Positions 57,047 to 62,676 of a stretch of DNA of 64,000 nt are shown here, piece after piece. Made by a program: the position numbers and the translations under genes. This DNA is from Streptococcus gwangjuense (GTDB taxonomy: Bacteria; Bacillota; Bacilli; Lactobacillales; Streptococcaceae): the NCBI RefSeq assembly GCF_003627155.1, contig NZ_CP032621.1:930001-994000 (forward strand). Direction: 5' to 3'. Under the pieces are notes generated by a model. It had not been told where the DNA came from and ran no database searches. It saw nothing but the letters and a program-made list of their open reading frames with translations. Numbering within the stretch: position 1 is the stretch's first letter; every line of letters begins with the position of its first letter.

Positions 57047-58609
57047 ATGAGCAACATTTCAACTGATTTGCAAGATGTAGAAAAAATCATCGTTTTGGAC
57101 TATGGTAGCCAATACAACCAGCTGATTTCACGCCGTATCCGTGAGATTGGTGTTTTTTCAGAATTAAAGAGCCATAAAATTTCAGCTGCTGAAGTTCGTG
57201 AAATCAATCCGGTAGGAATCATTCTTTCAGGTGGTCCAAACTCTGTATACGAAGATGGTTCATTCGATATTGACCCAGAAATTTTCGAACTTGGAATTCC
57301 TATTTTGGGAATCTGTTATGGTATGCAGTTGTTGACCCATAAACTTGGAGGAAAAGTTGTTCCCGCAGGTGATGCTGGAAATCGTGAATATGGTCAATCA
57401 ACCCTAACTCACACACCATCAGCTCTTTTTGAATCAACACCTGATGAACAGACTGTTTTGATGAGCCATGGTGATGCAGTTACTGAGATTCCTGCTGACT
57501 TTGTTCGTACAGGGACTTCAGCTGATTGCCCTTACGCAGCCATTGAAAATCCAGATAAACACATTTACGGTATCCAATTCCACCCAGAAGTTCGTCATTC
57601 TGTATACGGAAATGATATCCTTCGTAACTTTGCCCTTAACATCTGTAAAGCTAAAGGCGATTGGTCAATGGATAACTTTATTGATATGCAGATCAAAAAA
57701 ATCCGTGAAACAGTTGGAGATAAACGTGTCCTTCTTGGCCTTTCAGGTGGGGTTGACTCTTCAGTTGTTGGGGTTCTTCTTCAGAAAGCAATTGGCGATC
57801 AATTGATCTGTATCTTTGTAGACCACGGTCTTCTTCGTAAAGGAGAAGCTGACCAAGTTATGGACATGCTTGGTGGTAAGTTTGGTTTAAATATCGTTAA
57901 AGCAGATGCTGCAAAACGTTTCCTCGACAAACTTGCTGGTGTTTCTGACCCTGAGCAAAAACGTAAAATCATCGGTAATGAATTTGTCTATGTATTCGAT
58001 GACGAAGCAAGCAAGCTCAAAGATGTGAAATTCCTTGCTCAAGGTACCTTATATACAGACGTTATCGAGTCTGGTACAGATACAGCTCAAACTATCAAGT
58101 CACACCACAACGTGGGTGGTCTTCCAGAAGACATGCAGTTTGAATTGATTGAACCACTCAACACTCTTTATAAAGACGAAGTTCGTGCCCTTGGTACAGA
58201 GCTTGGTATGCCAGACCATATCGTATGGCGCCAACCATTCCCAGGACCAGGCCTTGCTATCCGTGTCATGGGAGAAATTACTGAAGAAAAACTTGAAACC
58301 GTTCGTGAGTCAGACGCTATTCTTCGTGAGGAAATTGCTAAAGCTGGTCTTGATCGCGATATCTGGCAATACTTCACAGTTAACACAGGCGTTCGTTCAG
58401 TCGGCGTTATGGGTGACGGTCGTACTTATGACTACACGATTGCAATCCGTGCGATCACTTCTATCGATGGTATGACTGCTGACTTTGCCAAAATTCCATG
58501 GGATGTCCTTCAAAAAATCTCAGTACGTATCGTAAACGAAGTGGATCATGTTAACCGTATCGTCTATGATATTACAAGTAAACCACCTGCAACCGTTGAG
58601 TGGGAGTAA
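57047..58609 (+). CDS. guaA: GMP synthase (glutamine-hydrolysing)
   Basis: A 520-residue enzyme that converts XMP to GMP. The N-terminal class I amidotransferase has Cys90 in GICYGMQ and HPEV, the middle ATP pyrophosphatase has LSGGVDSS, and the C-terminal dimerisation domain ends PPATVEWE. The last codons (GTTGAGTGGGAGTAA) contain the left copy of a 13-bp direct repeat that flanks the downstream island. The coding sequence is intact. The start has AGAAAGGA upstream. Confidence 0.98.
58596..58608 (+). repeat. Attachment-site copy at the guaA 3' end (attL)
   Basis: TTGAGTGGGAGTA, identical to 62664-62676. The guaA 3' end is a known integration target of mobile islands in many bacteria, and the repeat restores the guaA stop (TAA here). 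Confidence 0.85.
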
Positions 58610-58829: not shown

Positions 58830-60845
58830 ATGATTTCTAGAGTAAAATTTTATGATGTAAATGACTTATCTATCGGTTTCTATTTTCCAAGAATTCAAGA
58901 AATTTTAGATGCTTATTTATCGAATTCTTATAGTCTAAATTCTTTTTTGGAAGCCCTTGAATTTTATAATATTATCAAATTCATAGAAAATGAGGTTTTT
59001 TCAATTGACTGGTCGCTAAGCTATATTGAAAAAATAAAGAAATCTCTTCCTTCGATGATTCAACTACAAAATAATTATTTTGGTTCTGCTCCGAAAGATG
59101 AGATTTTAAATAACATAAAACTTCTACAAAGCGAATATAACTATCGTGAAGACTTTTTTGAGATATTTACATTATTTAACTATGGTCAAAAAATTAGTGA
59201 AGTAGAGTTTGTGCAATATTTTATAGAATCCAATCTACATTTATGTCATCTCTTAAAAAATACCTATTTTCTAAAAAAGTATCCTACTTTCATTAAGCAA
59301 TTTTTTCTGAGTTCACCCTCTCATCTTGAAATATTACTCGATAATTTTGTAGATTCAAATTCATGTAAAAATGTTATCCCAAGTAATATCACAAATTTAG
59401 AGTGGAATGATTTAATTGAAAAATATATTTGTGACCCCGATGTGAATATAAATTATTTAAAAATTTTAAGAAACCCTATAAAAGGTTTCGATAAGAATAG
59501 ATACTTTCAACTTACAGATAAACAAAAACTGTTGATTGACAAAAAAATTCAAGAATTTAATTCTAGTTTTAATGATAAGGATTTTGGAATTCAAGTTGAT
59601 ATTAGAGTATATACAAAGAAGGAAGCGTACTATTACGCAATTAAAAAGAGTAGGGAACTTCATATTGAGGGAATTGAAAAAGGTTTGTATAATCCTATTG
59701 CAGTCGCAACAGGTGGATCTAGGCCAAAACAATATGAATATACAATATCAACTTTTATAGATAGTGCTAAACTTTTTGAAAAACATAATTTTCAAAATAT
59801 ATTAGACTATTTTTGTAAAGACTTTGAACTGAGCACAAGTGTTGGTACTTTTGCATTAGCAAGCTTTCCTCAACTAGAGATGGGGGTACTTGAAAGAACG
59901 TTAGGCATTTCGACTAGAAATCACTATAAATTTGGTTTTTACTTCTCAGTCAAGCATCAACTATACGTGATGAAACTGATTGCTTTATCAAAAATACTAC
60001 AGAAATTCAGTCTAAGAATTGAAGATTTCATTACTTGGTTTTTCGATATTTTCCTGACTAATCAGTACGGTATTGATTGGATACATTTTGATGTGCCTTC
60101 AATTTCAGAAACAACGGGAAATAAAACAGCAACACTTTTTAGAATCGAAGAATCATTAAGAAAACAATACAAATTATTGAGTGAAGAAGGGCTTATTGAT
60201 GTAAATTTATATAATATTACTTCTACTCCTTCAATTGAATCTTTGCAGAGTTTTACTAAAAGAAAATACTTCTCAATGAATAATTCAGATAATAATATTC
60301 AACAGATTGTTAATTTATTATTCTCTGACCAAAGTCCTATTCATTTTATTAATGAGGAATACAAAGGAAGCAACTTTAAGGAATTAATTTCACAACAATG
60401 CTTGAGTTATGCAAATTTTCATGAATATCAAATAGATTACATAAAACTACTAATAGATGCTGGAATTTGCCAAAATGATACAGGTGTTATATCTTTTAAA
60501 GATATGTCCCAAATAAGTCTTTTAGAAAAAATGTTCTTATATGGCTCTGTTAATAGTATATCTTTATCTGAATCTGAAAAACTCAGTGCTGATAGGATGC
60601 TTGATAATGGATGGTTAATATTTTCGGATACCTTATTTTCAATTCAAGAAATTAATTATTTGAATTTTGTCCTAAATAACAAATCATATGACAATAGCTG
60701 GGGAATCAGAAATAAGTATTTGCATGGAGTACCTATTTATGATTCTATTCAGCAATATGAGTATGACTATCATCTCATTCTGCTCATATTAATTTTCTAT
60801 ATTATCAAAATAAATGAGGAACTCAAACATCGTAGTTATTGCTAA
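58830..60845 (+). CDS. Large protein of unknown family with C-terminal HEPN-like motif
   Basis: A 671-residue protein, rich in Ile, Asn, Lys and Tyr, that I do not recognise as a whole. No signal peptide. Near the C-terminus, WGIRNKYLHGVP contains R-X4-H (Arg627, Asn628, His632), the hallmark of HEPN ribonuclease domains, followed by a hydrophobic helix (LILLILIFYIIKI). No Walker or helix-turn-helix motif was seen in the rest. The start ATG has no ribosome site. It lies 50 bp before the TIR-like gene on the same strand with no terminator between, so the two form an operon. By analogy with HEPN effectors it may be an RNase toxin of a defence system; this is inference. Confidence 0.8.
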   Translation: MISRVKFYDVNDLSIGFYFPRIQEILDAYLSNSYSLNSFLEALEFYNIIKFIENEVFSIDWSLSYIEKIKKSLPSMIQLQNNYFGSAPKDEILNNIKLLQSEYNYREDFFEIFTLFNYGQKISEVEFVQYFIESNLHLCHLLKNTYFLKKYPTFIKQFFLSSPSHLEILLDNFVDSNSCKNVIPSNITNLEWNDLIEKYICDPDVNINYLKILRNPIKGFDKNRYFQLTDKQKLLIDKKIQEFNSSFNDKDFGIQVDIRVYTKKEAYYYAIKKSRELHIEGIEKGLYNPIAVATGGSRPKQYEYTISTFIDSAKLFEKHNFQNILDYFCKDFELSTSVGTFALASFPQLEMGVLERTLGISTRNHYKFGFYFSVKHQLYVMKLIALSKILQKFSLRIEDFITWFFDIFLTNQYGIDWIHFDVPSISETTGNKTATLFRIEESLRKQYKLLSEEGLIDVNLYNITSTPSIESLQSFTKRKYFSMNNSDNNIQQIVNLLFSDQSPIHFINEEYKGSNFKELISQQCLSYANFHEYQIDYIKLLIDAGICQNDTGVISFKDMSQISLLEKMFLYGSVNSISLSESEKLSADRMLDNGWLIFSDTLFSIQEINYLNFVLNNKSYDNSWGIRNKYLHGVPIYDSIQQYEYDYHLILLILIFYIIKINEELKHRSYC

Positions 60846-60895
60846 CCAAATTCATTCATAAATAATATTCTACTGATTAACTATCGGAGCTTTTT

Positions 60896-62053
60896 ATGAC
60901 TACAATATTCTTTTCATGGCAATCTGACTTACCGAATAAAACAAATAGAAATTTAATTGAGAATTCTATAAAATTAGCATTGAAAAAAATGAACCAAGAT
61001 TCTCCGTACTCTCTTATCACTGAAATTGACAGAGATACAAAAGGTGTTCTAGGTAGTCCAGATATTGTTGATTCAATATTAACCAAAATTGATAAGTGTG
61101 GCCTATTTATAGCAGATATATCAATTATAAACAGTAGTTTAAATGGTAAAAGAACTCCTAACCCTAACGTATTATTTGAATTAGGATATGCAGTAAATTG
61201 TCTAGGGTGGGATAGAGTTATTTGTGTGTTCAATTCTGATTTTGGCGATGTTTCAGAACTACCTTTCGATTTACGTAATAGACGAATTCTAACTTATGAA
61301 ACATCCAATATTTCCGAAACAAGGAAAAAGTTAGCTGATATATTTAAACAAATAATTGATAAGAATTACTATACTTTAGAACAAGTCCAAGAAGTTAGTG
61401 ACTTTTATAGTATAAAAATCTATTCATGCTTTATTAATATCATATCAAGAATTATAAAGGTTTTATATGGAAGTGAAACTGTCTGCTCTTTTGAAGCAAT
61501 TACTAATGTTTTAAATATGACTCCTACAGAAATAAATAGACTACTTTCGCATGAATTGCTGGGTTTTAACTTATTTACAAGCTATGACGAGCAAATTAAA
61601 ATATTAACAAACGAGTTAGATAGAATCACCTCTATTAATATGTTTAATACAAACCTGTATGTACCCATTATTAAATTAATTAAGGAATTAAAATCCCATA
61701 ATCTTTTTATTAATAGAGAACATTTTTTTGAAAATTTTAAAGTAAATACACCCATTATGAATGACTATAGTATCATTCATAATAGTGATAATAACGAAAT
61801 TCCGAATAGATATGCTCTAGGAAAGAAAATTGATACCAAAAGAGCAAAAATCGTAGATTTCACCGATATTAAACGAACTGACCATGTTAAATTTGCTTTA
61901 ACTCACTTCTGTTTAGATGTAAATACATATAACGTTTACTATAATCATTATGTTTGTATTCTTAAATATATCAATGAGTTTATTAGTAATAATGATGGGA
62001 AATTTTTAATTGACAATACAGAAATATTAATAAAAAATGTAAAAAAACTGTAA
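60896..62053 (+). CDS. Protein with N-terminal TIR-like nucleotide-binding domain
   Basis: A 385-residue protein. The first ~135 residues form a TIR-like domain: strand and loop IFFSWQSD (4-11), DRDTKGVLGSPDIVDSI, then TPNPNVLFELGYAV (87-100) where Glu95 aligns with the catalytic Glu of NAD-cleaving TIR/CAP12-type domains (NVxFELG motif), and ELPFDLRNRR. The remaining 250 residues are unassigned and may sense or partner. It has a good CGGAG ribosome site and a terminator 45 bp after the stop. Such domains occur in anti-phage systems that deplete NAD. Pairing with a HEPN-like gene suggests a two-part abortive-infection module; function not proven. Confidence 0.82.
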   Translation: MTTIFFSWQSDLPNKTNRNLIENSIKLALKKMNQDSPYSLITEIDRDTKGVLGSPDIVDSILTKIDKCGLFIADISIINSSLNGKRTPNPNVLFELGYAVNCLGWDRVICVFNSDFGDVSELPFDLRNRRILTYETSNISETRKKLADIFKQIIDKNYYTLEQVQEVSDFYSIKIYSCFINIISRIIKVLYGSETVCSFEAITNVLNMTPTEINRLLSHELLGFNLFTSYDEQIKILTNELDRITSINMFNTNLYVPIIKLIKELKSHNLFINREHFFENFKVNTPIMNDYSIIHNSDNNEIPNRYALGKKIDTKRAKIVDFTDIKRTDHVKFALTHFCLDVNTYNVYYNHYVCILKYINEFISNNDGKFLIDNTEILIKNVKKL

Positions 62054-62095: not shown

Positions 62096-62133
62096 TAGAG
62101 CCTGATAGATTACATATCAAGCTCTCTTTTTTG
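62096..62133 (+). terminator. Terminator of the island operon
   Basis: GAGC.TGAT pairs with ATCA.GCTC (62097-62124), followed by TCTTTTTT on the plus strand. Confidence 0.88.
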
Positions 62134-62140
62134 GTTTATT

Positions 62141-62466
62141 CTATTTACTTAATGTTACTGTTTCACCACTATCTCCTGCTAAATCAGGCATTGTTACAGA
62201 ATCTCCAGAAACTGAATATTTCAGCTCAGTACCATTGTTATCACTGATAATCTGTTTGTCTGTATCAATAGCTACTTTCTCGGAATAGAGATACTTCACA
62301 TTATTGCCTATCTCTGAAAGGAGATTGATATTAAATATGTTTTCATCACCACTTACTTTTAGTTCGTAATGCAATGTCAATTCTTCGTCTTCGAATCCCA
62401 TTTCAGAACCATCAATACCGCTTTTTTCGTATGAATATGTTCCTGATAGCTGACTATCATTAGTAC
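62141..62466 (-). pseudogene. 5'-truncated lipoprotein-like gene
   Basis: On the minus strand a frame runs from about 62466 to a TAG at 62141. It reads CTSTNDSQLSGTYSYEKSG, then a beta-rich domain ending GDSGETVTLSK. The Cys followed by Ser/Thr/Asn residues looks like a mature lipoprotein N-terminus, but no signal peptide precedes it; instead the frame meets foreign sequence. An internal Met (62401) could open an 86-residue product, without a ribosome site. It is best read as a gene whose 5' end was removed by recombination. Confidence 0.6.
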
Positions 62467-62663: not shown

Positions 62664-62676
62664 TTGAGTGGGAGTA
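62664..62676 (+). repeat. Right attachment-site copy (attR)
   Basis: TTGAGTGGGAGTA, a perfect copy of the guaA 3' end. The bases that follow read G, giving TAG: the ancestral guaA probably ended here with GAGTGGGAGTAG. Confidence 0.85.

Follow-up and report, generated by a model that had tools for sequence, protein, structure and literature searches.

An integrase-less two-gene island at guaA of Streptococcus gwangjuense that codes a HEPN-type and a TIR/DNPH1-fold protein

Do two adjacent genes of Streptococcus gwangjuense, named here P1 and P2, form one anti-phage module, or are they separate effectors that travel on the same mobile island? They are found in a window of 64,000 nucleotides (contig NZ_CP032621.1, positions 930,001 to 994,000 of the forward strand; coordinates below are those of this window) that a sequence-only reading had proposed to hold a conserved module of a HEPN-like and a TIR-like protein. 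The explanation favoured here, which is given about an even chance, is a small mobile defence cassette that lacks an integrase and whose two genes, probably co-transcribed, code separable effectors of the abortive infection type.

P1 (58830-60845, plus strand) and P2 (60896-62053, plus strand) code proteins of 671 and 385 amino acids, respectively, according to the listing of open reading frames (ORFs). The two genes have the same orientation and are separated by 50 bp. The three 1-kb segments covering 59001-62000 have a GC content of 27-28%, compared to 32-46% in the remaining 1-kb segments. P2 is followed by a terminator-like hairpin with an 11-bp stem (62097-62125, plus strand) and, next to it on the plus strand, by CTTTTTT. 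The scan assigned the hairpin to the minus strand; the 97 nucleotides spanning the structure have a folding energy of -16.1 kcal/mol (z -2.5). Hairpin and CTTTTTT together support a predicted terminator, and the initial description of an AT-rich two-gene operon with its own terminator agrees with these data.

The island is inserted at the 3' end of guaA (57047-58609, plus strand), named from its ORF sequence as the gene coding GMP synthase. It is bracketed by the 13-bp direct repeat TTGAGTGGGAGTA, whose left copy attL (58596-58608, plus strand) is within the end of guaA and whose second copy attR (62664-62676, plus strand) defines the right end, giving a length of 4,068 bp from repeat to repeat. 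These are the only two copies in the window when up to one mismatch is allowed; at least two matches were obtained in 2 of 100 shuffles. Across the 118 genomes of the genus that were searched, the last 300 bp of guaA gave a match in 117; the right flank did so in 39, of which 14, counting the window's own genome, are long matches. The empty site is found in six relatives (G541, G538, G540, G028, G082 and G049), in which guaA is directly joined to the right flank with an overlap of 11-13 bp between both and a single copy of TTGAGTGGGAGTA, with small variations.

Other relatives carry different cargo at guaA: an element of 5.6 kb coding a tyrosine integrase and a Rep protein (G087), a GmrSD-type gene (G019; PADLOC HEC-06, E 1.9e-66), a gene for a 119-amino-acid DUF4062 protein with a partial PDC-S60 match (G034; E 2.2e-20) and a single short gene without family match (G084). 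The suggestion of an integration hotspot is supported by the repeats, the empty sites and this variety of cargo. In G034 (L165:796-2375) the DUF4062 gene adjoins a gene of 410 codons without match, and the two are perhaps a further uncharacterised cassette or a split gene. Mobilisable elements of S. suis are also described as targeting guaA (PMC12479173). Island GI-BM6001.4 of S. pneumoniae BM6001 likewise occupies the guaA 3' end, with a 15-bp imperfect repeat, but carries its own predicted integration and excision module, which is absent from the cassette studied here (PMC10383233). No integrase was found in this cassette, so its movement would be aided by other elements. Besides P1 and P2, the ORF listing shows no gene of size within the island, and a tRNA gene was not detected anywhere in the window. 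An ORF of 86 amino acids (62141-62401, minus strand) lies beyond the terminator; at E 0.001 neither Pfam nor PADLOC gives a match for it, and it is perhaps the leftover of a larger gene.

The island has been transferred between streptococcal species. The DNA identity of guaA to the window is 85.6% in Streptococcus sp. HMSC074B11 (L010), 78.7% in S. orisratti (L011) and 85.6% in S. oralis (L012), as opposed to 99.1-99.6% for P1 and 98.8-99.5% for P2 in the same three loci, which shows that the island is young and mobile. P2 is also present at 99% in two database entries named S. suis. The right end deviates in S. orisratti, where the match to the right flank is limited to 39 bp and the right repeat was not seen in the available sequence.

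What are the two proteins? P1 is a full-length match of PDC-S56, a phage defence candidate of PADLOC (E 3.6e-119, 397 bits, residues 2-666 aligned to positions 5-639 of a profile of 649). It features a helical amino-terminal region, a linker and a carboxyl-terminal HEPN-type region with an insert at about residues 480-600. A confident structure model (predicted local distance difference test, pLDDT, 92.8) puts this insert, which is weakly similar to winged helices, inside the HEPN-type region. The Rx4H motif near the carboxyl terminus, R627-N628-K-Y-L-H632 (60708-60725, plus strand), has the polar residue after the arginine that is expected in HEPN proteins. R627, N628 and H632, together with E398 and E607, are identical in all 80 aligned P1 relatives, so the motif, already noticed from the sequence as RNKYLH, is not a chance occurrence. 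The upstream acidic element Ex3[KR], found in many HEPN families although not in all, is also present: position 441 is acidic in 79 of 80 sequences, position 445 is K or R in 72 of 80, and both are inside helix 429-453 of the model.

The carboxyl-terminal region of P1 is related at the profile level to the DUF4209/C6orf70 HEPN RNases (PF13910). Comparison of profiles using two hand-cut halves gave E-values of 9.9e-6 and 0.0086, other segments being at least 0.065 and at least 0.12, and the similarity is centred on RNxxxHG and collinear with the helix-2 element. DUF4209 proteins share with P1 the RNxxxHG motif near the carboxyl terminus, the upstream acidic helix element and a size of about 600 amino acids; in P1, however, E441 and R627 are 186 residues apart, whereas the DUF4209 reference L174 has 62 between E486 and R548. 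A whole-length hhalign comparison of P1 with DUF4209 alignments was discarded as too weak to use (E 0.005, probability 7%; the control of TIR against DUF4209 gave E 0.11). The Pfam model PF13910 had no match in P1 and weak matches in 2 of 20 P1 relatives (best E 0.042); being below its cut-off, P1 is not filed as a member. On these motifs P1 is a predicted RNase. Among the best 50 rows of a fold search with the P1 model, HepS of prophage Gifsy-1 (PDB access code 9oik) was the sole HEPN protein recognised, with a weak score, and others may be among them. The HepS chain has 218 residues and is bound to a phage tail-tip protein according to the PDB title; no paper on HepS was found in the literature search. 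Sequence searches of the PDB yielded nothing beyond chance-like rows for P1 and P2, alone or as profiles.

Relatives of P1 occur in several phyla and have a patchy distribution. P1 was matched in 6 of 147 relatives, the window's own genome included, one match being a short broken piece. The nearest non-streptococcal relatives among genome contigs (35-40% identity) come from candidate phyla (L013, L014 and L015; Saccharibacteria and Pacebacteria bins). Among 116 neighbouring proteins from 80 P1 loci there were six matches to phage integrase, six to HTH_3, three to the type I specificity domain and three to the type I HsdR domain, counts that are descriptive, taken with no control gene, and do not measure enrichment. 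In two loci (L054:5938-7875 and L068:5986-7932) the P1 homologue is found between specificity-type and restriction-type genes, as judged by gene sizes and clusters, an arrangement which suggests defence genes embedded in type I restriction operons. Members of the DUF4209/C6orf70 family were reported in restriction-related operons (PMC3710099). In genome G141 (L171:5964-8921) an AbiH gene (PF14253, E 2.7e-50) starts 3 bp after the P1 homologue, another candidate pairing. On the Enterococcus hirae plasmid NZ_CP042292.1 (L101:3677-6489) the P1 homologue and a gene whose product is annotated as a toll/interleukin-1 receptor domain protein are arranged tail-to-tail; the latter escaped the P2-like profile. 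Genome G087 has, away from guaA, a P1-type gene (L172:6743-8611) near ORFs that by sequence are integrase-like and phage-regulator-like.

These surroundings support the proposed association with defence and bear on two other explanations. P1 could be an ordinary RNA-processing protein or a nucleic-acid-binding regulator without defence role, as the winged-helix-like insert and the predicted location of eukaryotic C6orf70 members at the endoplasmic reticulum (ER) membrane (PMC3710099) might suggest; its presence in only 5 of 146 other relatives and in several phyla, its place on a mobile island here, and restriction and integrase genes as neighbours make this very improbable. The cassette could alternatively act against plasmids and integrative elements, or be a toxin-like stabiliser of the island, instead of acting against phages. 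The integrative element of G087 uses the same site, HEPN domains are also known as toxins of toxin-antitoxin systems (PMC3710099), and the look-up for an antitoxin was confined to the listed ORFs. This proposal is nevertheless considered quite unlikely given the adjacency of P1 relatives to AbiH and type I restriction genes. P1 is also large with a long amino-terminal region, unlike short HEPN toxins. No relative of P1 or P2 was found in the phage collection, and a search of viral contigs with exact word patterns gave no P2 relative.

P2 is composed of a TIR/DNPH1-fold domain (residue 1 to about 157) and a carboxyl-terminal part (about 165-385). The first domain has the invariant glutamate of the ELG signature, Glu95 (codon 61178-61180, plus strand), within the motif PNPNVLFELGY; this residue is conserved in 60 of 60 aligned sequences and in all 117 alleles of 385 amino acids among 120 near-identical ones. 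Glu95 is presumably catalytic, a role assumed from the biochemistry of TIR and DNPH1 enzymes. The TIR-like beginning of P2, with NVLFELGY, proposed at the outset, is supported at the level of the fold. The domain model is equally near in fold to TIR NADases, which cleave nicotinamide adenine dinucleotide (NAD+), and to DNPH1 nucleotide N-hydrolases, so that NAD cleavage has one alternative and the predicted substrate would be NAD+ or another nucleotide. P2 matches the PADLOC TIR effector model (E 7.7e-7). Against PF10137 (CAP12-PCTIR) it scores 21.4 bits, below the Pfam cut-off of 24.7, which two of its relatives pass (L094 with 27.0 and L096 with 30.4) and five others fail.

The carboxyl-terminal part of P2 had no relatives detected beyond near-identical streptococcal copies. 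No relation to the corresponding part of Shewanella-type TIR proteins was detected (E 0.29), and a hint of kinship from shared columns and from a profile containing P2 itself was dropped. The structure model is poor past residue 157, thus no fold is claimed there. The early remark that most of both proteins is unassigned does not hold for P1, with its full-length PDC-S56 match.

Are P1 and P2 then one system? They could be an obligate two-gene system, recently assembled in streptococci, in which one partner detects the phage, or produces or modifies a signal, while killing is left to the other, or in which RNA cutting and NAD loss lead together to arrest. The 50-bp spacing between P1 and P2 is kept in the window and in Streptococcus sp. 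HMSC074B11, S. orisratti and S. oralis, and the island offers no further gene of size. P1 is on a long branch (0.87), with named streptococci and Listeria among its surrounding relatives, and the carboxyl-terminal part of P2, for which no relation to that of other such TIR proteins was detected, could be specific for its partner. The distribution of the two genes points the other way. A P2-like frame was found at 3 of the 80 P1 loci on genome contigs, all copies of this island, and 77 have none in the available sequence (at most 6 kb to either side, less on short contigs). Five other relatives have P1, in one case as the broken piece, and P2 was detected in none of them; among the 147 relatives it matched the window's own genome only. 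Full-length P2 was recovered twice in a class-wide search of 398 genomes, from G525 and from the genome of the window itself. For the seven P2-like plasmid genes examined, no frame resembling P1 was seen over a distance of about 4 kb. Those copies of the pair that were compared are near-identical and therefore count as one event. An obligate pair is for these reasons judged somewhat unlikely. The notion of one conserved module was not upheld by these searches of genome contigs, genus relatives, class and plasmids, in which the pair co-occurs only in copies of this island, and a conserved two-gene system was rejected as the default. The P1 and P2 families appear to be mostly separate and to have become neighbours on a single occasion; the two proteins may have a joint function.

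The literature searched on HEPN, TIR and guaA had no characterised system recognised with a P1-P2 pair, in line with the sequence-only reading, which did not recognise it among named systems. No paper was found for PDC-S56, a library entry without description or mechanism, for which the HEPN-type carboxyl terminus is assigned here and which in this island is followed by P2. PDC genes were reported as candidates in S. thermophilus (PMC11514479; PDC-S56 is not named in its accessible part) and HEPN domains occur in four of the systems validated in another study (PMC13092281). The TIR proteins of CAP12/Pycsar type (PF10137, bacterial STING) and of SPARTA differ from P2 in their carboxyl-terminal part, besides its score below the cut-off. 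Neither Pfam nor PADLOC gave an Argonaute match for P1, as would be expected of the short Argonaute partner in SPARTA, and no CD-NTase of CBASS was matched by P1, P2 or the 86-amino-acid ORF. DNPH1, a small enzyme, has deoxynucleotides as substrates; P2 is longer than the DNPH1 and nucleoside 2-deoxyribosyltransferase fold by an additional part of some 220 residues.

In the favoured cassette of separable effectors, P1 would most likely be a self-contained sensor-effector. A phage product would be recognised by its amino-terminal helical region, perhaps together with the insert, and recognition would release the carboxyl-terminal HEPN RNase to cut cellular or phage RNA via R627 and H632. P2 would most likely be a nucleotide hydrolase of TIR/DNPH1 fold that splits NAD+ or a nucleotide via Glu95, hydrolysis starting when its carboxyl-terminal part, acting as regulator, is triggered. 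Both proteins would halt the cell ahead of phage release. A bolder version, regarded as unlikely, is a dual-effector abortive system in a shared operon, where a C6orf70-type HEPN RNase with a catalytic region interrupted by a winged-helix-like sensor and a TIR/DNPH1-type hydrolase with an orphan carboxyl-terminal domain jointly attack RNA and the nucleotide pool (NAD+ or deoxynucleotides), the cassette borrowing the integrases of guaA-specific elements.

If this last version were true, bacterial PDC-S56 proteins would form a defence branch akin to C6orf70, which in humans is a protein of the ER. The analysis connects PDC-S56, widespread and catalogued as a defence candidate, with an old family of RNases to which a human protein also belongs, and provides it with a testable mechanism whose candidate key residues are R627, H632, E441, E607 and E398. 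It also documents a clear case of an integrase-less defence cassette moving among streptococcal species at guaA, where relatives carry other genes of defence type.
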